A stretch of 29,021 nt of DNA from a virus: positions 1 to 29,021 of IMG/VR virus record IMGVR_UViG_3300025097_002670; one strand, 5' to 3'. Below, one piece after another: positions 4,212 through 25,600 of this stretch (positions are counted from its first letter, which is position 1; every line of letters begins with the position of its first letter). The translations under genes were made by a program, and so were the position numbers. The notes below the pieces were generated by a model that worked only from the letters and a program-made list of their open reading frames with translations, had not been told where the DNA came from and searched no databases.

Positions 4212-4424
4212 TTACTCAATCCTCTCAATTCTATATCGTTTACCATTTCCAAAACCAACTTCTATTTTTTCATTAAGTAATAAACGACACCAACCCTTGG
4301 ACTTTGAAACATGATCCATTACATCGTGTTCACCGTAATCTCCAGGTCCAATTTCTTTCCATGTACTTGCAATAGAAATTAGTGCACGATGTTGACAATT
4401 TGATTGCCCGGCGATGACATTCAT
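4212..4424 (-). CDS. Small hypothetical protein
   Basis: 70-residue protein without a recognisable family. It has a central acidic stretch (GPGDYGEHDVMDH) and a basic, beta-like C-terminus (EVGFGNGKRYRIERIE). There is no signal peptide or membrane segment. The ATG at 4424 overlaps the TGA of the upstream ParB-like gene (ATGA, 4421-4424), so it is probably translated by coupling. Its place between a ParB-like gene and the polymerase suggests a replication accessory role, but that is only context. Confidence 0.6.
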   Translation of the reverse strand: MNVIAGQSNCQHRALISIASTWKEIGPGDYGEHDVMDHVSKSKGWCRLLLNEKIEVGFGNGKRYRIERIE

Positions 4425-5389
4425 GGTACTAACTGTGCCTGTGAAAACTTAGGAATGTTGTAATACAAACCAACAACTTTGGCTGCTTCCTGAATATCCT
4501 TGTGAATTTCATACGTGGTTATGACACCACAAGCCCAAGCTAAGACACGTGTACAAAGCATATTTCCTTGAGGTGAAATCCATTCTTCAGCTAAGATAGC
4601 TTTCTCACCATTAACTTGTTTGAAAAGATTTTGTATCAATTCAAGCATATCTTCCATGTCACGTTTTGAACGAATTTTTCGACTGTCAGCACGATCTGTT
4701 TTCTTAATCCTATCCAAAACACCGCGACCTTGACCAGCTGCACGTCGATCACGAAGAACACCTGCCATTTTCAATAATTCATTTGGATCTGATGAGAACC
4801 TGGAAAGTTCAGCCATGTCACTAGGTAAGATATAACCTTGTGAAGCAGCAGTTTGAACTTCTTCAGGCATTTCAAGCAAGCGAATACGTTGCTGGACCCA
4901 ACCAGCAGATTTTGTAACACGTTGAGCAATGTCTATACGTGTCCAACCACAAATCCAATAATGCTTAATTGCTTGAGCCTCTTGTGCAAAATTTAATTCT
5001 TTTCGTTGAAGATTCTCAATCGCATTAAGATCACGTTGCTCAAAAATCGGCATATTCTCAGCTTTAATAATAGCTGGAATATGTTTTGCTTCATTGATCT
5101 TGTAAGATGTATATCGACGGTGCCCCACAATAAGATGATACTTGAAACCTTTATCAAGAAGATCACCTTCACGTTTCAATTCAGCATAATCTTTTGTTCG
5201 CAATGGTCGAATAGTGATCGGTTGTTGAAGACCACGAAGTGCAATGTCTTTTGCAAGATCAATGCAATCTGTAGGAGAAAACCAACCACGACAATTGAAT
5301 TCATGATCAATATAAATTTGTTCAATTGGTACTAACGGGATACCAATTGTTTGATCATTTTGCAAGGCTTCTGGTATCATACGTGTCAT
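4421..5389 (-). CDS. ParB/Spo0J-like protein 1
   Basis: 322-residue member of the ParB N-terminal (ParB/Srx) superfamily. After an N-terminal strand (IPLVPIEQIYID, 17-28) comes the LAKDIALRGLQQPITIRPL block (45-63) and the signature VGHRRYTSYK (88-97), the CTP/nucleotide-binding box of ParB proteins. An ENLQRKELNFAQEA helix and a helix-turn-helix follow (DIAQRVTKSAGWVQQRIRLL, about 154-173), as in classical ParB. The C-terminal third is charged and then cysteine-containing, with no recognised domain. No ParA ATPase is nearby, so plasmid-style partition is unlikely. Phage ParB-like proteins may act as nucleases, transcription regulators or DNA clamps. The start overlaps the methyltransferase stop by 4 bp. 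A second, divergent paralogue lies at 11511-12548. Confidence 0.85.
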   Translation of the reverse strand: MTRMIPEALQNDQTIGIPLVPIEQIYIDHEFNCRGWFSPTDCIDLAKDIALRGLQQPITIRPLRTKDYAELKREGDLLDKGFKYHLIVGHRRYTSYKINEAKHIPAIIKAENMPIFEQRDLNAIENLQRKELNFAQEAQAIKHYWICGWTRIDIAQRVTKSAGWVQQRIRLLEMPEEVQTAASQGYILPSDMAELSRFSSDPNELLKMAGVLRDRRAAGQGRGVLDRIKKTDRADSRKIRSKRDMEDMLELIQNLFKQVNGEKAILAEEWISPQGNMLCTRVLAWACGVITTYEIHKDIQEAAKVVGLYYNIPKFSQAQLVP

Positions 5390-6012
5390 GGATTACTCCT
5401 GCAGAATGCTTCTGCAAATGCTGGGGGTGTAATAGAACGATTTGCTTGACTACGAATATTTTCAGACATTTTGGAACCATCAAAAGCAGGTATAAATTTT
5501 TCTTCAGGGATTTCAAATCTTCCCCAAAGAAGAGTTTGTTTAGTATAAGGATCACCAAACCAGTTAGGTTGAAACTTGTAAGTAGGTTCACCTAACCAAC
5601 GTTGCATTTTACCAATTGGATTCTCCAATGCCCACCATTTAGGTTTTAATACATACACTAAACGTATGCAAGCATCCATGACCGAGATAGCTTGTTTCAT
5701 ATCTTTGTCAGTTCGTCCAATCCTTGCTCCAGCCGCACTGAAGCATGTACAAGGTGGAGCGGCGAGTACTCCATGTATATGACCCACAAACTTACGAATA
5801 TCACCAAAATCATTTGGCAATCGTCCCATGTTAGAAGGAGCAGATGGCCAAAGACAAATATCGTAATCAGGTAAAGTAACTCGAAGAACTCTGTAGTTTC
5901 GATCAACATATGGTTGACTCCATGAACCAGAACCGGCACATAGATCCAAAATCGTTGGACCATATGTACCAATTGCTTTTGGACCTTCTATAAGTATGTC
6001 AAGATCATCCAT
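5386..6012 (-). CDS. C5-cytosine DNA methyltransferase-like protein
   Basis: 208-residue, small phage-type DNA cytosine methyltransferase. Motif I is ILDLCAGSGSWSQPY (21-35), the AdoMet-binding loop. Motif IV is AAPPCTCFSAAG (84-95), with the catalytic Cys 88. Motif VI is ALENPIGKM (128-136), an ENP variant of ENV. A FGDPYTKQTLLWGRF block (152-166), typical of this phage subfamily, follows. The separate target-recognition domain of full-length C5 enzymes is missing or very short, so the target cannot be guessed. The likely role is methylating phage DNA to escape restriction, or as the first step of hypermodification. The ATG at 6012 lies 5 bases after a tRNA-like element whose acceptor 3' strand provides the AAAGG ribosome-binding site. 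The stop overlaps the ParB-like gene. Confidence 0.85.
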   Translation of the reverse strand: MDDLDILIEGPKAIGTYGPTILDLCAGSGSWSQPYVDRNYRVLRVTLPDYDICLWPSAPSNMGRLPNDFGDIRKFVGHIHGVLAAPPCTCFSAAGARIGRTDKDMKQAISVMDACIRLVYVLKPKWWALENPIGKMQRWLGEPTYKFQPNWFGDPYTKQTLLWGRFEIPEEKFIPAFDGSKMSENIRSQANRSITPPAFAEAFCRSNP

Positions 6013-6017
6013 TTAAA

Positions 6018-6091
6018 TGCCTTTGGCCGGATTCGAACCGACACTTCAAGAAGTAACCAGAAATCATGTCTTGACACAAATTCACAAAGGC
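6018..6091 (-). ncRNA. tRNA-like element with acceptor stem and T arm but no standard anticodon arm
   Basis: 74 bases that look like a class I tRNA at both ends. A perfect 7-bp acceptor stem (GCCTTTG at 6091-6085 with CAAAGGC at 6025-6019) is followed by an A discriminator at 6018, and a 5-bp T stem with loop TTCGAAT lies at 6042-6026. The inner 42 bases have the normal length, but no 5-7-5 anticodon arm fits and there is no D arm. The best inner pairing is a 6-bp stem (TCAAGA at 6074-6069 with TCTTGA at 6051-6046) with a 17-base loop. No CCA is encoded. The element sits 5 bases after the secreted-protein stop and 5 bases before the methyltransferase ATG, whose AAAGG site lies in the acceptor 3' strand. 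It could be a degenerate tRNA, a tRNA-mimic regulator or an RNA-processing site. Confidence 0.6.
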
Positions 6092-6096
6092 TACCA

Positions 6097-6420
6097 TTAT
6101 CGCCAGGATTTCACACGAAAATTACCTGCTTGTGCATCACCTGTGAGTGTCATTCTTCCCCTAGGAACACAAGTAGCACAACCAGGACCACCCCAACCAA
6201 CTCCTTCATAATGGCCAATCAATCCCCAAATATGCCCACGAATACCATGAGCATTCATGTATGCAGCTTCAAGTTCACATTTTCTTTGATCACTACAGTT
6301 GTAATACTCTGCCGGTGGAGAACTAACTCTTCTTTGTCTCCATCGTCTTCTGCCAAAAGCATCAGCATCTGAACAAAGCAATGAACCAAGCAGAAAAACA
6401 ACAATCAGTAACTTCTTCAT
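6097..6420 (-). CDS. Small secreted protein with signal peptide
   Basis: 107-residue protein beginning MKKLLIVVFLLGSLLC, a typical Sec signal peptide with an AxA-type site after about residue 21 (DADA). The mature part starts with an arginine-rich stretch (GRRRWRQRR), then has four cysteines, a helix (CELEAAYMNAHGI) and a GHYEGVGWGGPGC-CVPRGRMTLTGDA segment that looks conserved but that I do not recognise. The frame is open further upstream; the ATG at 6420 was chosen because GGAGAA lies just before it and the signal peptide begins there. A secreted, probably disulfide-bonded phage protein inside a replication operon is unusual. It might act in the host envelope (exclusion, lysis or export), but this is inference. 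Confidence 0.7.
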   Translation of the reverse strand: MKKLLIVVFLLGSLLCSDADAFGRRRWRQRRVSSPPAEYYNCSDQRKCELEAAYMNAHGIRGHIWGLIGHYEGVGWGGPGCATCVPRGRMTLTGDAQAGNFRVKSWR

Positions 6421-7344: not shown

Positions 7345-9467
7345 TAGGCCGCGACTCCATACATCTGTTTCAAAGCCCCAAGAGCCATAAGTTCCAAACG
7401 ACGTGAATTCATCAAGGAATCATATACACGTTTATCAGAAGGCAGATGAAAACAGTCATAAATCCAACCACCACGCACCATGTCCATCCCAATGCGATGC
7501 CCGCGATCAACAGCTTGCGTTCTGTTCTCGGGATTGAAGTCATTACTAAAAAAGAATGTCCCAGGAGAAGCAGTAAGAGTAATACCCATCCCAGCAGACC
7601 CTGGGTTGCCAACGAAGCAAACATATGGAAACCTTTCACGTTGTTGATCGTAAATCATTAATAAGTCAGCTTTTGAACCTTGGATCACATCACCCTTAGG
7701 TGTTTCCATGAACCAACCACGTCCATCACATTTGAACGATGTCCAACCCTGTTGATGACAAATCTTACATATACGATCAATTGAACCTTGAAAACCTGCA
7801 TATACATTAAAGCGACCAATCTCTTGGTGCATTTCAAGCAAGTCTGTAAGAACCTTATCTTTAGGACAAGGAACTTCATCCATTGTTCGATGCATTTCTT
7901 GTACAAGTTTTTGTCCTGCACAATTAAAGCATTCAATTTCACGTGTTCCAAGATTGATAGATTCTTCACCTACGATTTCAGGTATAAATTCCAAAGGATC
8001 TTCATCTTCTGGAAGTTTTTCCCAAAGATACCTCACACCTTTCTGAATTTCATCTGGTAATAAAAAATGATCAGGATCATTTGTGTCGAAATATTCAAGT
8101 TGAAAACCTTTTGCTTCACAACCAGGACAATCAATTTTCTTTCCAGTTGGTGTATCTTTGTAGATAAAACCATCGCTCAAAGTTCGTAACTTACTAAGAG
8201 CATCAACAGTCCTAACTTCGTTTGCAACGATTAATTTAGCGGCACGAAGAATTTCTTCTGTAGGTTCAACTTCAAAGATTTTGTATCGTTTTTCAGGAAG
8301 GTCTAAACAGTCCTTCTTAAATTTAACAAGGACTAATCCTTCTGTTCGATCATTCAACTTTTCAATTTCATTGACACCTTTAACATACTTGTGAAGTTTT
8401 TCCAAATTGGCAAGATTAACAAAATTCAATGTAGAATCATGAATAGGATTATCTTCTAACTTTCCACATAATTTACATTTTTCTTCATCATCTCGCCACA
8501 CTTCTAATTTCTTGTATTTACCTCCAGCGGCACCTTCGTATTCCGCAAGTATACCTAATCGCTCGCGAAAAAGATACCAATTTGCTTCTGACAAGAAACC
8601 TGGTGCTACAATTTCACATTGTTTCCAAATATCTGCTGGTGTTTTTGGTGAAGGTGAACCTGATAATTCTGCTATGATACACTCAGTTCCCCAATGCTTA
8701 CGCATTGCATCCGCAATCATTTGAGCAGCAATTGATCTTTGTGTTTCTGGTGTTTTACAACGTGAAGATTCATCCAGAACCAAAATACGTGGTGGCGGTC
8801 TATTCGGGTCCCAAGTATTAACAACCTTAACTAAACCTTGATAACTATGAAGTTGTGGAGCAATAGGTGTATTCCATTTCATGAAATCTACTTGAGCCGC
8901 AGCAATAGCTGATAAAGGTGCAGCCCAAACTATATCTGTCCACTTAAAATCCCAAATCTTCTGTAGCATTTCAACCATGATAATGGCAGCAAGAGTTTTG
9001 CCTGTACCCATTTCACATGCCCAAAGAAAATGACGTACAGAAAAACCATGTTGAATCATGTCAATTTGATGATCATAAGGTTCAAGAGTTTTGAATACTC
9101 TGTTAGCACAATATTCCTTTATTTCTTCTGGTAAAATCAAATTCCTTTCCCATTGTGTATAAGGAGAAGGTCCAAATTTCCCCATAAAAGCTTCAAGTTG
9201 AAAGATATTTCTTTGAGTTATAGGTGCAGACCATACCTTTGTTGGCTCTGTGTATGGAGCCATATTATCAGGAAAACCATGATACCTTCGTTTTTCAAAC
9301 GATGATTTTATATCATCTATCAATTCACGCACGTAACCGAAATGAAAAGCCATTCGATCACCTTCAATTCTTTTAATACGTACAGGTGTATATTGTCCAC
9401 CTGCAAGAAAATGCGTATCAAAATGATCTTGTTCTAATAATTCTAGTGTTGACTTCGCAGCGACCAT
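7344..9467 (-). CDS. SNF2-family (SF2) DNA helicase/translocase with zinc-knuckle insertions
   Basis: 707-residue helicase from the ATG at 9467, chosen over one 30 bases upstream because GAGAAAG sits at a good distance. Motif I is EMGTGKT (152-158), motif II LVLDESS (229-235), motif III ELSGSPSP (267-274). Motif V is GSAGMGITLTAS (623-634) and motif VI QAVDRGHRIG (651-660). The RecA-like halves are separated by a long insertion with four CxxC pairs (CKLC 331, CPGC 447, CFNC 513, CKIC 567), probably zinc-binding knuckles. Motif II is DES rather than DEAH. Phage SNF2 proteins are thought to remodel replication or recombination intermediates. It overlaps the upstream gene by 25 bases and is followed by a coupled microgene. 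Confidence 0.9.
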   Translation of the reverse strand: MVAAKSTLELLEQDHFDTHFLAGGQYTPVRIKRIEGDRMAFHFGYVRELIDDIKSSFEKRRYHGFPDNMAPYTEPTKVWSAPITQRNIFQLEAFMGKFGPSPYTQWERNLILPEEIKEYCANRVFKTLEPYDHQIDMIQHGFSVRHFLWACEMGTGKTLAAIIMVEMLQKIWDFKWTDIVWAAPLSAIAAAQVDFMKWNTPIAPQLHSYQGLVKVVNTWDPNRPPPRILVLDESSRCKTPETQRSIAAQMIADAMRKHWGTECIIAELSGSPSPKTPADIWKQCEIVAPGFLSEANWYLFRERLGILAEYEGAAGGKYKKLEVWRDDEEKCKLCGKLEDNPIHDSTLNFVNLANLEKLHKYVKGVNEIEKLNDRTEGLVLVKFKKDCLDLPEKRYKIFEVEPTEEILRAAKLIVANEVRTVDALSKLRTLSDGFIYKDTPTGKKIDCPGCEAKGFQLEYFDTNDPDHFLLPDEIQKGVRYLWEKLPEDEDPLEFIPEIVGEESINLGTREIECFNCAGQKLVQEMHRTMDEVPCPKDKVLTDLLEMHQEIGRFNVYAGFQGSIDRICKICHQQGWTSFKCDGRGWFMETPKGDVIQGSKADLLMIYDQQRERFPYVCFVGNPGSAGMGITLTASPGTFFFSNDFNPENRTQAVDRGHRIGMDMVRGGWIYDCFHLPSDKRVYDSLMNSRRLELMALGALKQMYGVAA

Positions 9468-11510: not shown

Positions 11511-12548
11511 CTACATGTTCACAATGTTGGCAGCATCTTTCGCAGCAGCATCTTGCTTGGCATCTTCTCGCTCTTTCTTCTTGCGTTCAACCTCGTCCTT
11601 TTTCTTCTGTTTACGGACGATATCCGCCTCACGTTGAGCTTGCTGCGAAGCCTCATCGAAATTGAGAGTCCAAGCTAATGCCAAAGATACGATATCACTC
11701 GGACTTGTGAGTCCACCATCTGTGACCAAAGCCAAGATGGCACCGCTACCTTCAGCCACAGCTTCAAACTCTTCCTTCAACACCGTAATCTTGCGAAGAT
11801 GCATTGCGGGCTGAAATTCAGCCGGTGCTGCATCTTTGCCAGCTTTCTTTGCGTCTCGAATTTCCTTGACGCGTGCCTTCATACGTGGCACAAACGTTTG
11901 AGGCTGTTCCGTTTGAGCAGCATCCACGTGCTCTGCCTGTTCTTCTTCGGGAAGCTTGGATAGAGCATAAGCGTTGGTAAGATGGATCTTGCCAGCATCG
12001 ACAAGTTCTTGAATTCCATCCTGCAACTTGTTGAGTGAAAGTCTTTGTTCCACCCACGTCTTGGATTGACACACTTTCTGTGCCAATTGTGTCACAGTCA
12101 TGAAAGGATTCCGCGAAAGAATGCGGAGAAGGTGGCGACTGTACTCGGCGGGTCGTGTAACAACACGTGTTGCATTGGTGATGATCTGAGCTTCAAGCAA
12201 CTCACCATCATCCATTGAAACGACGAATGCAGGAATTTCAAATCGACCTGCATCCGTTGATGCCGTGAATCGTTGCAAACCATCAATCAGTCCATACTTG
12301 GTAACACCAAGGCTATCGAGTTCACGAACCAAGATCGGTTGCAAAACACCACGTTCTCGAATGGAATTGACCAACAACTGATACTCCTCACGTTGACGAT
12401 CAACGTCACGTAAAGAGATCTCAGATTTCTCGATCAATCCCAAAGGAATGATCTTCGTTACCGTTCCGGCCTTTTCCTGTGCAGCTGCGATCTCTTCTTT
12501 TTCGATCGCATCCACGGACCGTTCTACAGTAGCAGCATCAGTTGACAT
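11511..12548 (-). CDS. ParB/Spo0J-like protein 2 with charged coiled-coil tail
   Basis: 345-residue ParB superfamily protein. An N-terminal strand (KIIPLGLIEKSEISLRDVD, 32-50) leads to the ILVRELDSLGVTKYGLIDGLQRFTAS block (72-97). Here DGLQRF replaces the usual GHRR box, but the key Arg is kept. A helix-turn-helix follows (TVTQLAQKVCQSKTWVEQRL, about 151-170). The C-terminus (about 300-340) is an almost continuous Lys/Glu/Arg helix, probably a coiled coil or nucleic-acid contact. It is the first gene left of the divergent promoter. Its codons are richer in C and G than most genes here, so it is probably made early and in quantity. With no ParA nearby, a role as a clamp or transcription factor on phage DNA, possibly on the symmetric repeats just upstream, is the simplest inference. 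Confidence 0.85.
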   Translation of the reverse strand: MSTDAATVERSVDAIEKEEIAAAQEKAGTVTKIIPLGLIEKSEISLRDVDRQREEYQLLVNSIRERGVLQPILVRELDSLGVTKYGLIDGLQRFTASTDAGRFEIPAFVVSMDDGELLEAQIITNATRVVTRPAEYSRHLLRILSRNPFMTVTQLAQKVCQSKTWVEQRLSLNKLQDGIQELVDAGKIHLTNAYALSKLPEEEQAEHVDAAQTEQPQTFVPRMKARVKEIRDAKKAGKDAAPAEFQPAMHLRKITVLKEEFEAVAEGSGAILALVTDGGLTSPSDIVSLALAWTLNFDEASQQAQREADIVRKQKKKDEVERKKKEREDAKQDAAAKDAANIVNM

Positions 12549-12819: not shown

Positions 12820-15516
12820 ATGACCGTATCAAGAATCGCATCTATTTTAAGGATGTTAAATCAAAACACCCACAACGATCTAGCATCTCTTTATAATAGT
12901 GGAATGGAATGTCAGGTCAACGTTGCACAAGATCTTGGTGAAGCTATTCAAGGTAAATTTGAAGGCAAATCCTGGACAGGATATACAGACGGTGATCAAA
13001 CTTGGAAACCATTTCGCATCCCTTATAATGCGAATTCAACGCCCGAGTATGATGTTACAACACCTATGAATTTTGATCTTGCTGAACATGCTGAAGCTAT
13101 CGGGATGACGGGTTGGGACTGGCAAAATTGTGTTAGCCGTTGGGTCGCTTTTGATTTCGATGCAATTGTAGGTCACTCAGATAAGCATAGTTCTAAACTA
13201 AGTGTTGAGGATCTTGTACGAGTGAAACAAGCAGCCTGTGATATACCGTGGGTGACTGTGCGTCATTCAACAGGTGGACGTGGGTTACACCTGTATGTGT
13301 TTCTTGATCCTGTATCTACAGCCAACCATACAGAACACCAAGCTTTGGCACGTTCTATTTTGTCCCTGATGTCAGGAATTGCACGTTATGATTTCGCATC
13401 CAAGGTTGACATTTGTGGTGGCAATATGTGGATTTGGCATCGTAAGATGCAAAAAAGTCCACAAGCTTTAGACCTCATCAAACAAGGTAAAATACTTAAA
13501 GAAATACCTGCAAATTGGCGTGACCATATAGCTGTTATGAAGGGTAATAGAAAGAAGATCAAACAACGAATACCAGCATCAGAAGAATTACCAGAATTAC
13601 ATGAAAAATTTGATCAAACAGCTGGTCAACAAAATTTAATTGCTTTGGATCTTATACACAAAAAGTTAATTGATTATCTTCATCAAAATTGTTCAAGACA
13701 ATGGTGGTGGGATTCTGATCATCATATGCTTGTCACACATACGTTGGATCTGAAATCAGCACATGAGGCTCTTGCCTTCAAAGGTATTTACGAAACAAGT
13801 TCACCTGGTAATGATGCTGAACAAAACTGTTTCGCTTTTCCAATGCGACAAGGTGCTTGGTCAATCAGACGTTATTCATTAGGTGCAAGTGAACATGCAT
13901 CATGGGAACAAGATGGTCGTGGTTGGACTAAGTGTTACTTGAATTATGAACCCAATCTTAAGATTGCTGCTCTTGCTCATGAAGGACTTGAAAGACCTTC
14001 AGGTGGATATGCTTTCAATTCACTTGCTGACGCAAAAGAAGCTGGATTAGCCGTCGGTTCTGAAATCAAAACACCAGCAGGCATGGACGGTCGTACTGCG
14101 ACCATCAAAATGCATAAAGATCGATCTCGAATCATTGTTGAAATTCCAGCAGAACATCATGATCAACCAGGAGACATGCTCAGTTGGTTACGTGAAAAGA
14201 ATAAGTGGGTAAGGATCTTGAATGCAAATCTCAGTAACGAAGGTGAAGTTGAAACAGAAAGTGTTGATGATTTCTGCCGACATATTGTTACACGTGACGG
14301 CGGAGATGCAGGTTGGATGATTCGAGGTGATGAATGGTGGAGACAAGAACCTTTGACACATGTTAAACTGGCTCTCAAGACACACGGATACAATGCACCA
14401 GAAGTTGATAAAATTGTTGGTGGAAATGTTTGTAAACCATGGCTCTTGACCGTTGCACCCTTTCAATCAGAATATCCAGGCGATAGACAATGGAACAAGA
14501 ACGCTCCACAACTAAAACATGTGCCTAGCAATAATGATACCCTCTCTTTTCCTCATTGGCAAATGATCTTAGATCATGTAGGCAAGGGTTTAGACGTTGC
14601 TGTAATAGAGTCAAATTGGTGCACAAGCAATAATATAGTCTCAGGTTCAGACTATCTTAAATGTTGGGTTGCTTCTTTGTTCCAATATCCACTTCAACCT
14701 CTTCCGTATCTATTTATCTTCTCTGATAAACAGAATACAGGAAAATCCATCCTTCATGAGTCTTTGAATTTGCTTTTCAGTCCCGGATACAGGCGAGCAG
14801 ACCATTCGCTTGGTGGTTCAATTTTCAATGGTGAACTTGAAGGTGCAATTCTTTGTGTAATAGAAGAAACCAATCTTGCTACAAATAAAACAGCTAATGC
14901 AAAGATAAAAGATTGGGTAACTTCACCTATGTTACCTATACACAAAAAAATGTTGACACCTTATGAGGTTATAAATACAACTCATTGGATACATTGTTCT
15001 AATTTCAAAACAGACTGTCCTATATGGCCAGGTGATACACGTATCACAATGATAAATGTACCAGAACTTCCTGTTAATCCAATACCAAAACCAGTCTTTA
15101 TGGAAGTTTTGGCCAAAGAAGCACCAGATTTTCTAGCTGCATTGCTATCACTAGAAATACCAGCTTCAAACGATAGGTTAAGATTACCTGTTCTCAATAC
15201 ACAACAAAAACTTGAAGCAGCTAAGATCAATGAAAATTTAGTTGAAATTTTCTTACGTGAAGCCTGTCATGAAGCACCAGGTTACATGATCTCGTTGGCA
15301 AAATTTGCAGAAGCATACATTGCATGGTTAGACCCCAGCGAACGTATTGGTTTGACAAAACGTAAAATTAGTTCATCTATGCCTGATAGAATTCCTAAAG
15401 GACGAAACCCTTATAATGCAGCATGGTCCTGGGGTAACATATCTTTCAAAGTTCCTGATGAAACTCGATCACCGTTAATTTGTTTTGAAGAAAAACTCGT
15501 AAGCAAGGAAATGTAA
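12820..15516 (+). CDS. Primase-helicase: AEP-type primase fused to SF3 helicase
   Basis: 898-residue replication protein. The N-terminal domain has the archaeo-eukaryotic primase pattern: WVAFDFDAI (108-116, two metal-binding Asp), STGGRGLHLYVF (150-161) and a later VDIC (196-199) that may give the third acid. The C-terminal domain is a D5-like superfamily 3 helicase. It has Walker A SDKQNTGKS (635-643), Walker B AILCVIEE (676-683), a sensor-like HCSN (725-728) and a possible arginine finger in GDTRITMINV. A winged-helix-like end follows. It probably primes and unwinds DNA for the polymerase encoded on the other arm. It is the first gene right of the divergent promoter, with AGGA about 8 bases before the ATG. 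The next gene overlaps it (TAATG). Confidence 0.9.
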   Translation: MTVSRIASILRMLNQNTHNDLASLYNSGMECQVNVAQDLGEAIQGKFEGKSWTGYTDGDQTWKPFRIPYNANSTPEYDVTTPMNFDLAEHAEAIGMTGWDWQNCVSRWVAFDFDAIVGHSDKHSSKLSVEDLVRVKQAACDIPWVTVRHSTGGRGLHLYVFLDPVSTANHTEHQALARSILSLMSGIARYDFASKVDICGGNMWIWHRKMQKSPQALDLIKQGKILKEIPANWRDHIAVMKGNRKKIKQRIPASEELPELHEKFDQTAGQQNLIALDLIHKKLIDYLHQNCSRQWWWDSDHHMLVTHTLDLKSAHEALAFKGIYETSSPGNDAEQNCFAFPMRQGAWSIRRYSLGASEHASWEQDGRGWTKCYLNYEPNLKIAALAHEGLERPSGGYAFNSLADAKEAGLAVGSEIKTPAGMDGRTATIKMHKDRSRIIVEIPAEHHDQPGDMLSWLREKNKWVRILNANLSNEGEVETESVDDFCRHIVTRDGGDAGWMIRGDEWWRQEPLTHVKLALKTHGYNAPEVDKIVGGNVCKPWLLTVAPFQSEYPGDRQWNKNAPQLKHVPSNNDTLSFPHWQMILDHVGKGLDVAVIESNWCTSNNIVSGSDYLKCWVASLFQYPLQPLPYLFIFSDKQNTGKSILHESLNLLFSPGYRRADHSLGGSIFNGELEGAILCVIEETNLATNKTANAKIKDWVTSPMLPIHKKMLTPYEVINTTHWIHCSNFKTDCPIWPGDTRITMINVPELPVNPIPKPVFMEVLAKEAPDFLAALLSLEIPASNDRLRLPVLNTQQKLEAAKINENLVEIFLREACHEAPGYMISLAKFAEAYIAWLDPSERIGLTKRKISSSMPDRIPKGRNPYNAAWSWGNISFKVPDETRSPLICFEEKLVSKEM

Positions 15517-15707
15517 TGAAATTTATTACACGTTGGAATGGATCATTGTTTCAGGGTGTAGGTTACTGCAAAGAACCAGGTTGGTTTAATGTATGGTGTG
15601 GACCTTTTGATCTTGATTGTTTTAATTTTGAAACATACAGAAGTGTAAATCTTAGGATCTTCTGGTGGTGTTTTTACTTGAAAAAGGATAAGAAAACATG
15701 GAAATAA
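15516..15707 (+). CDS. Small aromatic-rich hypothetical protein
   Basis: 63-residue protein with many aromatic and cysteine residues (about six Trp, several Phe and Tyr, three Cys) and a basic end (KKDKKTWK). There is one short hydrophobic run (LRIFWWCFYL), probably too short and too aromatic for a normal span. The ATG overlaps the primase-helicase stop (TAATG), and its end overlaps the kinase start by 10 bases, so it is coupled to both. The family is not recognised. Confidence 0.6.
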   Translation: MKFITRWNGSLFQGVGYCKEPGWFNVWCGPFDLDCFNFETYRSVNLRIFWWCFYLKKDKKTWK

Positions 15708-16255
15708 TTTACGTAATGGGTGTTACATGTGTAGGTAAGTCTACTTTCATGCAACGTTCAGTCGACATCATGGGTAACAAGATCGGACTCGTGGAAGTCG
15801 GCAAGGAAATGCGTAAGCGTTATCCTCCAGAACGATTTCGTGGTCAAGCAGCAATGGCTGACACAGAAGATGAAATTTTTGAAATTTACACCAAACAATT
15901 AAAATCTCAGTTGGATAAAGAAATTATCTTAGTTGACGGTCAACCTCGTTTTGAATCTCAAGTCCCAAGGATCTGGAATCAACATCCTGAAATTTCGAAA
16001 AGTTGTCTTTGGTTGCATATTTCTGATTGTGTGATACAGGGACGAATACGTGAACGGTTCTCTATTGAAGATCCAACTGACTGTTTTGAAAAAGGTACAC
16101 AAGCAGCAAAACGTGATCTCGCACAACAACGTGTGACCAATGACAAGATTCAACTGTTTCCTGTTCTTTGGTTACTCATAAGTCGTGGTGTCAAGATAAC
16201 ACCACTTGAACATCTTTCCGATTTCAATCATCGACTTTTCTGGAAAGGATACTGA
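15698..16255 (+). CDS. Adenylate-kinase-like P-loop nucleotide kinase
   Basis: 185-residue P-loop kinase. The Walker A is GVTCVGKST (8-16). A VDGQPRFESQ segment, like the LDGFPR block of adenylate and other NMP kinases, holds the acceptor site. An RIRERF-PTDCFEK lid-like region is followed by a helical end. It most likely phosphorylates a (d)NMP to the diphosphate, helping the reductase and deaminase feed the polymerase. An RNA or polynucleotide kinase is a less likely alternative. The ATG at 15698 lies behind AAAAGGA and overlaps the previous gene; its TGA overlaps the start of a 47-residue gene (TGATG). Confidence 0.8.
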   Translation: MEIIYVMGVTCVGKSTFMQRSVDIMGNKIGLVEVGKEMRKRYPPERFRGQAAMADTEDEIFEIYTKQLKSQLDKEIILVDGQPRFESQVPRIWNQHPEISKSCLWLHISDCVIQGRIRERFSIEDPTDCFEKGTQAAKRDLAQQRVTNDKIQLFPVLWLLISRGVKITPLEHLSDFNHRLFWKGY

Positions 16256-22668: not shown

Positions 22669-25600
22669 TTAACTTTCAGGACAATCACCAATTGTACCAG
22701 TAACAACTGATCCTGGTCCAAAACCACCAGCATTACCTTCTGTGATCTCAGCAGCTGTTGGAAATTCATCACTTCCAAGTGCTGGCCAAAAGAATTTGTA
22801 TTGATCCATCTCTCCTGCACGAATACCTGTATGTAACACGAATTCAACTAGATTAGATACTGAATCAAAAACAGCTTCTTCTACAACACATTTCACATCT
22901 GCATTAGACACAAAAGTTGAACTAAGTTGTAGTAAAACAGTATCCAAAGTATCAACATTCAAACGTGAATGGAAAACAGATACATGAACTTTTTTCCACG
23001 TATTTGAATATCGGATCAACCAAAAGGTTGCAGACTTTAAAACCAATTCTCTGTCTGTATAAATATGAAAAAATTCTTCACTTTGATGTGCACCATATTT
23101 TTTCACGTTATGACGTAAAATAACTTTGGGATCTTCTTCTCCTTGTTCTAATTCAAGATAATCAATCTTGTATGTCGATGTAAGAACTGTTACCAGTTCT
23201 TCTGTTCTTGTGTATGCAATTTTCAAAGAGTCTAATTCAAAATCTCCTTCATCTAATGTTGTATCTTGTGAAGGTTCCTCAGATAAGTATTTAAGGAACA
23301 TTTCATCATTTATTAACAAAACACCTAAACGTGCTTCCCAAGCTGTACGACGTATTTCTTCTAGTGCATCTGGTCGTTCAAAAGTACAAAAATCCACAGG
23401 ATAAAGTTCTTCTCCGCCATTTTGTAACTTTGCTTTGATCGCTGCAAAATTAGAAGCATTAACCGTTTTGTCAGTATAGGTCTCAACAATATATTGAATG
23501 TAATCAACAACACTTGGACCAACAGGTGAAATCAATGAAACATAGACAACTTCTTCCCAATTTTCACCAGGAATCAAAACTAACGAAGTTGGAAATGTTA
23601 AAGATGTTACATCAATTGAACCTAAGTTTGCACTTTCATTTTTGATATAATATCTTGAAGGTACAGGTGCCAAAAATCGAAGACCATCTTCATTTGTTCG
23701 ATAAGCACTCACAGACTTAACTGTGGATGGGAGAATATTTGCAATATAAATGTCACAATCTGGACCGTCTTCTTCGATTCTAGATCCAGAATCAGCTTTC
23801 CAGAACATACTTTCAGGTAATTCCTCATAAGGAATACTATATCGAGTTAACCAATTTTCAGGGATGAGACCAGAAACTTCAACAACTTCTCCAACATCTG
23901 AACCTATTATTGTATAAATATCACGAAGTCCGGGTGCTACAGCAAAAACTGTATCTCCCAGAATATCATTTGGAAGCAAATAGACCAATTTTGTTAAAGT
24001 TGTCAATTCATCTTTACTGACAGGACCAGTTGCTCGTAAAATTGACAAAAGCATTTCTGCTTCAGGTCTATTCCAGATATTTGGGTCATAGTCACCAGTG
24101 AAGAAACCTTCAGGGTACCAATAACCAAATGGCCCAGGATACAATGGTGTATCAACAATTTCCCGTACAATGTTAGCCAAATTCATTCCACGTGGGAAAC
24201 CACCTGAACCACCTTTGTCCCATTCAACCAGTTCAAAATAAATTTTCAAACCAACTTGTTTTGTGACTTTCAGTATGTGACGATCTTTTGATCCATCTGA
24301 GTCATCAGTACCACGTTTCTTTACCAAGATCCATGTGTCTTCTAGCTGAGGAATAGATTCAGGATCACCATTAACATCAATAGTTGCTTCTAACCAAAAT
24401 AGGTTAGCACCATCGATGTCCTCAATACCTGAACAAGGATCATCATCTGGTTTCCAAGCATCTACTGCAATGTCTTTATCATAAGCTAATGGTCCTGCTA
24501 CATAACACATTACATCATCTGTATCAAATTGAACACGAAATCTAACCTTGTGTATTATGACATCAACATCTGCACCTGCACCAAAGATTTCTGCTCCATC
24601 TTTAGTTTTGACACATGTTTTCAACAACTGAGATTGTCTACAAATTTCTTTCCACACAGCTAAGTAATCTGCATGAATTTCACGCATTTTATTATACGTG
24701 TTAATTTGATTCTGAGCTGCTCTTTTCTTTTGCTCATATTCAAATTCAGCCAAACGACACATTTCTTGAAGAACTTTTTTACGTATAAAAATTGCATTTG
24801 CAGCAGCTGCCATAATTTGCAAAGCATTTTGTATTTGACGAATTTGTGTACGAATACCACGTGCTACTGCACCCGCATTCGCAAATCGTTGTGCTACTCT
24901 ACGAACACGTGTTAAAAGTGCAAGTAAAGCTAAAACTGTTGGACGTATTCTATCTTCATTTATGATTGCTTTAACATACTCATTCAAGATCCAAGACACA
25001 TCAGGTGCAATTGCATTAGCACCACGCATAACGAGTATCCAAAAATGAAGCATGAAACTTTCACGTCCATAATCAGCTTCTAAGTCTCTTAGACGTTGAT
25101 ACAATGTAATGTCAACACGTCCAAAAGCTTCAAGAAGAAATGCAACTTTTTTCTGTGAAACTTTCTTTGCAGGTACATGTTTCACACGTCCAATAGCTAA
25201 TGGCCAAGATTGACCTTCCAAATCAGATGCAACAAAATCAAGTTGACCTTCTTCAGGTGAAAAACCTATTTGATAAGATTCAACTTGAGATAAAATAGTG
25301 AAATCAATCGAACGAGCTTTTTCTTTCCATTCAAAAGGTGTACTAATTTGACCTTTGAACACAACAAACTTGTCAGCATCTACTAGACCGCCATACCATT
25401 GGTAGACAGTGGCAAGTTTCTTATGTATGTCTGTTTGATCCAGTATCCTTTTAATCTCACCACTTGTATCATCAAGTGATATAGGAACTTGGGCTGTTTG
25501 TGCTTTCTGAATTGTTAAAGCAGACTCAAGATTACCAACACTAAGAATTTTACCATCAATTCCTAGAATCGCTTTATCCGCATACTGCGATACACTTCCC

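Follow-up and report, generated by a model that had tools for sequence, protein, structure and literature searches.

The locus examined here raises the question of whether a short segment between two phage genes, resembling the outer half of a tRNA and lying directly ahead of a DNA methyltransferase gene, is a real tRNA-like element and, if so, what it may do for the virus. The window, i.e., the whole stretch of DNA that was analyzed (29,021 bases), corresponds to positions 1-29,021 of virus record IMGVR_UViG_3300025097_002670. A longer record, IMGVR_UViG_3300006927_000001 (81,873 bases), showed 99.98-100% identity to the window over the stretches compared and was thus considered to represent the same virus. 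PHROG searches returned matches to a major head protein, portal, terminase large subunit, ribonucleotide reductase, primase, helicase and DNA polymerase, and the polymerase was assigned to family A by Pfam. The matches to head, portal, terminase large subunit and replication proteins indicated that the virus is a tailed phage. Blastn of a 7-kb piece of the window and tblastn of its polymerase gave no match in the phage collection.

The segment is flanked by two small genes on the minus strand. Downstream lies a small C5-cytosine-type DNA methyltransferase of 208 aa (5386-6012, -; PHROG 757, E 7e-33), which scored slightly below cut-off against Pfam PF00145 (21.5 bits, cut-off 22). Upstream lies a 107-aa ORF (6097-6420, -) with a hydrophobic N-terminus, for which the PHROG search gave no match and which has a 52% identical counterpart in the close relative described below. 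The phage also encodes two different ParB-like proteins (4421-5389 and 11511-12548, both -).

Between these two genes, positions 6018-6091 (-) hold a 74-nt tRNA-like element without a cloverleaf, which is not a chance resemblance. Its acceptor stem consists of seven Watson-Crick pairs between GCCTTTG (6085-6091) and CAAAGGC (6019-6025), and the discriminator A (6018) is followed by TTTAA, with no CCA encoded. The T arm, GTCGG-TTCGAAT-CCGGC (6026-6042), has five pairs, one of them T-G (G-U), and both the distance from acceptor to T arm and the total length are those of a class I tRNA. Five nucleotides separate the upstream stop codon from the acceptor, and another five separate the discriminator from the methyltransferase ATG. 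The acceptor 3' strand contains AAAGG (6020-6024), a weak Shine-Dalgarno-like site (duplex with the anti-SD, -3.2 kcal/mol) that stops 7 nt short of the ATG at 6012. No D arm was found in the fold of the element or in a D-arm scan, and searching the inner 42 nt exhaustively for a 5-7-5 anticodon arm gave at best four of five pairs, wobbles included. In the minimum free energy structure the inner part forms a 6-bp stem, TCAAGA (6069-6074) with TCTTGA (6046-6051), closing a 17-nt loop (6052-6068); a second 6-bp stem, which contains wobbles, has a 4-nt loop. A sequence-only reading of the locus had described the 7-bp acceptor, the A discriminator, the TTCGAAT T arm at class I spacing, the missing anticodon arm, the best inner stem and the 7-base distance of AAAGG from the ATG, and all of these were recovered when re-derived from the minus-strand sequence.

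The rarity of this arrangement was assessed with a strict motif (seven Watson-Crick acceptor pairs, a 5-bp T arm and the A at class I distance), which occurred once in the window, whereas 20 Mb of first-order Markov sequence, scanned on one strand, contained none. Folded alone, the element reached -21.1 kcal/mol (z -1.99), and because five of 200 shuffles equaled it, its stability on its own is only modestly unusual. This z-score is what speaks for a chance resemblance, an explanation to which we give a negligible probability, as the Markov result and a counterpart at the same junction of a related phage both stand against it. With the Rfam tRNA model (RF00005), a 201-base stretch containing the element scored 31.2 bits (cut-off 29), with non-standard pairs flagged, and the element was the sole match to the model in the 82-kb record (E <= 0.001); an Rfam gathering scan of the whole 29,021-base window returned no match. 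On the opposite strand (6017-6091, +), a weak match to the Rfam family Plastid-ycf2 was observed (16.7 bits, cut-off 65.7). In L161, the antisense of a tRNA-Met also gave a sub-threshold match to this family, which thus seems to respond to mirror tRNAs.

In its standard mode, ARAGORN called no tRNA and no tmRNA in the window, and the intron mode at default stringency and the mitochondrial mode likewise left the element uncalled. With an allowed intron of 10-150 nt (-i10,150), the program made 10 calls in the 1.31 Mb scan set described below, against one in one Markov control, and no call at the window element, at its counterpart in the close relative L010 or at a third element found in G022. 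The relaxed search that the sequence-only reading had recommended was of limited use: -ps80 was useless as a detector, returning 859 calls from the real sequence and 629 from the Markov sequence, and -ps50, a threshold far below the noise-swamped -ps80, forced a tRNA-??? or a tRNA-Arg with a 5-nt intron on the window element. This uncontrolled setting forced calls on the window, L010 and G022 elements alike, and the mitochondrial mode, also uncontrolled, gave a tRNA-Leu in L010 and nothing in the window or G022 pieces.

A search with the polymerase identified one close relative, IMGVR_UViG_3300023192_001077 (L010), whose polymerase and methyltransferase are 89% and 91% identical to those of the window, with 456 of 721 four-fold sites (63.2%) identical across four genes. 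The order helicase, DHH phosphoesterase, small ORF, methyltransferase, ParB and polymerase is common to both, with additional small ORFs between helicase and DHH in L010. At the same junction, L010 carries a T arm (GTAGG-TTCAAAT-CCTGC), an acceptor ((T)GTCCTG/CAGGAT(C)) and a discriminator A, and shares with the window the ATTTAA-RTG run into the methyltransferase. Its TGTCCTG starts 5 nt past the upstream stop and pairs with CAGGATC at six of seven positions, and both spacings, stop-5 nt-element and discriminator-5 nt-start, are identical in the two phages. The L010 element is 117 nt long, its inner part being 43 nt longer than that of the window and unalignable with it, and it keeps a D-arm-like stretch, CTCAGTGGTAG. 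It scored 16.3 bits against the tRNA model, and no tRNA was called by standard ARAGORN at the L010 locus and around the junction.

The comparison of the two elements returned the compensating changes on which the sequence-only reading had made the element depend, and the element was thus not refuted. Acceptor pairs 2-71, 3-70, 4-69 and 5-68 and the middle pair of the T stem differ on both sides and still pair in L010, although one of these five pairs is G-U and pair 1-72 is broken there. In the L010 record, 1.0% of 7-mers pair with CAGGATC at six or more of seven positions, and 0.06% in addition form Watson-Crick pairs at all five inner positions, a criterion that was set post hoc. In simulations of neutral decay from an intact ancestor at the observed divergence, 12 of 12 and at least 11 of 12 pairs were kept in 0.1% of runs, and at least five double-sided compensations arose in about 1e-5; at a lower divergence of 0.1 per branch, the probability of pair retention was 0.07. 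Identity between the T arms (14 of 17 positions) was not significant alone (p 0.08). Only two orthologues are available, so the covariation rests on one comparison. In this pair of sequences, pairing was maintained in the outer half and not in the inner half, and the compensated pairs point to past or present selection acting on the acceptor and T arm. Together with the fully scrambled inner parts, they favor selection over an outer half that has simply not yet decayed. The compensations are undated, and part of them could stem from a time when both elements were working tRNAs.

More distant relatives were collected with a two-sequence polymerase profile, which yielded 25 phages with 30-58% identity in the best segment. 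At E <= 1e-5, the window methyltransferase was found in one of the 26 records, namely L010's own, and an 88-aa ORF of L040 showed 32% resemblance to part of it. Matches to the tRNA model above its cut-off were present in 14 of the 26 records, but not in that of L010. In seven of the 25 distant phages (L038, L040, L044, L046, L048, L052 and L060), the 6 kb upstream of the polymerase contained ARAGORN tRNAs on the same strand as that gene, which suggests that this stretch often holds tRNA genes. A set of 23 methyltransferase loci included the window virus and L010; at the other 21, all distant, ARAGORN found no tRNA, and in a T-arm scan of the same loci no T arm lay shortly upstream of the methyltransferase match.

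Further elements were sought in 1.31 Mb of sequence from 72 sources, some of them overlapping, which included most distant-relative records. The strict acceptor and T-arm motif occurred 24 times, and eight of these occurrences were not covered by an ARAGORN call; five Markov controls had 0-2 occurrences each. The L010 element, with its 6/7 acceptor, fails this motif. Strong T arms numbered 38, against three in ten Markov controls together, and 16 of the 38 fell outside standard ARAGORN calls. Amongst these 16, two (L097 and L157) are identical in sequence, six are called by the intron mode, and three, of which two belong to G019 and one to G021, possess a D arm and an anticodon stem whose loop carries an insert of 51-55 nt. 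Several others of the 16 are partial or unclear. The G022 element (L151:9220-9332, -; 113 nt) combines a perfect 7-bp acceptor, a perfect T arm and an encoded ACCA, and neither a D arm nor a 7-nt anticodon loop was found in it. Its acceptor probability varied from 0.06 to 0.98 depending on the folded length, and no long ORF was seen just upstream. Weak blastn matches of the G022 element in an Erythrobacter phage and of the window element in Synechococcus phage S-T4 were both discarded as ordinary tRNAs; the latter (NC_048049.1, about 23483-23557) is an ARAGORN tRNA-Leu (taa) ahead of a tail fibre gene and is absent from the record's feature table for that stretch.

A T arm followed by ATTTAARTG was found in five stretches of viral contigs, namely the window virus, L010 and three others. 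One of these, L166, has an ordinary tRNA-Lys, and L164 (5130-5193, +) and L165 share an identical 64-nt mini-cloverleaf that ARAGORN does not call (fold z -3.86). It has no linkers and no variable loop, and its two inner 5-pair arms have 6-nt loops, one of the arms folding as six pairs with a 4-nt loop. The mini-cloverleaf sits in a tRNA cluster, the stretch examined has no homologue of a window protein, and a search of the phage collection gave no match.

The three insert-bearing tRNAs (L142:8252-8374 and 8379-8502, -, in G019; L148:15779-15906, -, in G021) have D and T arms, acceptors of 7, 7 and 6 pairs, anticodon stems of 4, 5 and 5 pairs, and anticodon-loop inserts of 51, 53 and 55 nt, respectively. 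The tandem G019 inserts look alike (ACTCGAYAG ... GGGTCG ... GGTTATTGATTATCTA / TTGGTTATCTA). These inserts are candidate small tRNA introns or insertions; the Rfam intron families gave no match in the G019 stretch, and in L142 the two tandem tRNAs are covered by a sub-threshold match to YrlA (27.8 bits, cut-off 69). Other tRNA-like genes with long inserts were seen at L097:12014-12185 (-), the same as L157:7627-7798 (+), at L100:8224-8344 (+), at L109:8567-8696 (+) and in L126 at about 5454-5680 (-), all but the last being called by the ARAGORN intron mode. ARAGORN also reported phage-encoded tmRNAs in L114 (about 15369-15759, +; G009) and in L148 (near 3681, -; G021), and L112:15681-15883 (+; G008) holds broken tRNA pieces in tandem beside an intact tRNA-Thr.

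Predicted folding was also followed into the methyltransferase gene. As long as the transcript did not extend past the start codon, the window acceptor helix had a probability of 0.81-0.91. This fell to 0.49 when 13 nt of coding sequence were added, and to about 0 from 18 nt of methyltransferase sequence onward, where a long-range fold outcompetes the helix. In L010, the fold of the region was no better than shuffles (z -0.87), with probabilities in context of 0.04-0.23 for the acceptor and 0.48-0.86 for the T arm. The idea of an evolved fold switch between the element and the methyltransferase codons was rejected: 73 of 300 random synonymous recodings gave folds of equal or greater stability, 83% of them likewise left the acceptor below 0.5, and no counterpart was seen in L010. 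Since the competing window fold is not above its synonymous controls, it is not read as an evolved switch. These predictions, which ignore T-loop tertiary contacts and modifications, lend weak support, and masking of the ribosome site is unsupported by them.

A tRNA ancestry of the element is likely, because of its tRNA-like outer half, its class I length, the D-arm-like stretch in L010 and the tRNA-rich neighborhood. No donor tRNA was found, the 22-base tail having no exact match among the genome contigs searched. What the ancestor has become is the point on which the explanations differ. The sequence-only reading had named a decayed tRNA as the plain alternative, i.e., a gene in which mutation has erased the D and anticodon arms but not yet reached the acceptor and T arm, and which has no present function, the compensated pairs dating from the working-tRNA period. 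This joint account has a substantial claim, although we consider it to fall well short of probable. At 74 nt, the element matches a class I tRNA exactly in length, the fold scores of both elements are ordinary, CTCAGTGGTAG is kept in L010, seven of the 25 distant relatives have intact tRNAs in the neighborhood, and relatives' genomes hold several broken tRNAs or remnants, such as that in G008. Against it, the inner arms are unrecognizable and unalignable in both lineages, yet 12/12 and 11/12 outer pairs remain, a retention that was rare in the neutral simulations at the window-L010 divergence. An intact tRNA at the same place in homologous phages, which would have pointed to decay, was not called at the junction of the only orthologue, whereas the distant relatives do carry intact tRNAs nearby; the L010 compensations weaken the decay account and these neighborhood tRNAs still favor it. 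That the element is an att site, with the 3' end of a host tRNA copied through integration, is very improbable. Phage att sites often copy tRNA 3' ends, and integration leaves tRNA fragments, as reported in PMC9897764, but the 5' acceptor strand is present as well, the 22-base tail has no exact match in the contigs, and a PF00589 integrase was found in neither of the two records, which may be fragments and were searched for that family alone.

We tentatively favor, over decay, an intercistronic processing element: a tRNA-derived, anticodon-less signal that may be kept in a polycistronic phage mRNA as a site of the RNase P/RNase Z type, although our confidence in this reading does not reach an even chance. 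Given the compensating changes in L010, the element is probably a working RNA signal and perhaps a cutting site for tRNA enzymes. Within a tRNA, RNase P and RNase Z recognize the acceptor/T-arm stack. This recognition, together with the cutting of plant t-elements, mascRNA, phage RNAs and mRNAs in the sources discussed below, is why processing is preferred. Under the processing reading, a former tRNA gene would have turned into an anticodon-less tRNA-like signal inside the mRNA, and its 12-bp acceptor/T-arm stack and T loop would be recognized by the host enzymes that process tRNA ends. RNase P would cut 5 nt past the stop codon of the upstream ORF. RNase Z, the proposed 3' enzyme because no CCA is encoded, would cut directly behind the discriminator, at a distance of 5 nt from the methyltransferase start. 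The two cuts would detach the upstream mRNA, leave methyltransferase, ParB and polymerase on an mRNA whose leader is very short, and also release a small tRNA-like RNA. A single mRNA across the element, its recognition, its cutting and an effect on expression are what we infer for this scheme. It is supported by the acceptor/T-arm structure at an mRNA gene junction, 5 nt from both stop and start, in the window and in L010, and by the third element in G022, which has the same outer half, no cloverleaf and an encoded ACCA. Counting against it, the compensations may be old, pair 1-72 is broken in L010, the window acceptor loses to the long-range fold, the several tRNA remnants of the relatives favor decay, and promoter-like sites around the element are as many as in shuffles.

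Other functions of the outer half were also considered. One, suggested by the sequence-only reading, is translational regulation, in which the acceptor would mask AAAGG until a ribosome at the upstream stop, 5 nt off, or a tRNA-binding protein opened the site. AAAGG in the window and AGGA in L010 do lie within the acceptor 3' strand, the 5-nt spacing from the stop is the same in both, and tRNA-like operators are known: that of thrS, which has a tRNA-like structure adjoining a ribosome site as here, mimics an anticodon arm, which the window element is without. The details of the switch did not hold up, as the helix is predicted at about 0 once methyltransferase codons are included and the site is not unusually occluded (mean pairing seventh lowest of 21 gene starts). 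AAAGG is weak and ordinary among the 25 gene starts listed, it is predicted to be just partly paired, and masking the first 15 nt leaves it unfreed. Control of methyltransferase translation is thus weakly supported, the ribosome site is not robustly predicted to be sequestered, and we regard this reading as improbable. We rate slightly lower still a stable small tRNA-like RNA acting in trans, e.g., as a decoy that would occupy host enzymes binding or cutting tRNAs and could not itself be cut at an anticodon. The intact outer half agrees with such a role, as do other phage elements without a standard ARAGORN call or a 7-nt anticodon loop (G022, with encoded CCA, and L164), but the element is wedged between two genes and promoter-like sites are no commoner than in shuffles. 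A broader proposal, doubtful though less so than these two, is that the window, L010 and G022 elements, with L164 in another form, represent a scattered, unannotated phage class of anticodon-less tRNA-like RNAs, which would retain just the features seen by tRNA end-processing enzymes or EF-Tu-like partners and would serve either to punctuate operons or as uncuttable decoys against defenses that target tRNAs.

The favored processing element has partial likenesses amongst known systems. The tRNA-like domain of tmRNA consists of an acceptor and a T arm with no D stem. The window element shares this layout and differs in that its pair 3-70 is C-G, not G3-U70, its length is 74 nt and no tmRNA was called. 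Plant mitochondrial t-elements, in the passages of PMC11658184 that deal with them, are tRNA-derived, lie at gene ends, are cut by RNase P and RNase Z and are uncharged, and none in Arabidopsis has a genomically encoded CCA. They resemble the window element in having a tRNA-like structure at a gene junction and no encoded CCA, but they belong to plant mitochondria and are predicted to keep a typical tRNA-like secondary structure, whereas the phage element has no D and anticodon arms; in addition, t-elements are cut, whereas cutting of the window element is a prediction. The same passages describe mascRNA (MALAT1) as recognized and cut by RNase P and RNase Z, with a diverged D stem and anticodon region, and uncharged. 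It is thus like the window element in its tRNA-like structure with diverged inner parts, but it derives from a human long noncoding RNA and not from an intercistronic phage site. Non-tRNA substrates of RNase P listed in part of PMC11143913 include polycistronic operon mRNAs, the C4 antisense RNA of P1/P7, phage M3 RNA and pre-tmRNA. These are likewise RNAs outside tRNA genes in bacteria and phages, and in that part none is described with an acceptor and T arm at class I spacing directly before a start codon. In literature searches, which covered mostly titles and the openings of abstracts, no phage element of this kind was recognized.

Elements of this type are missed by standard tRNA calls and may thus be widespread, as 16 of the 38 strong T arms in the scanned part of this phage group were uncalled by standard ARAGORN. 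By analogy, the window element would act like a t-element. If it is cut, phages would punctuate their mRNA with the tRNA-maturation enzymes of the host, needing no protein of their own, as plant mitochondria do.
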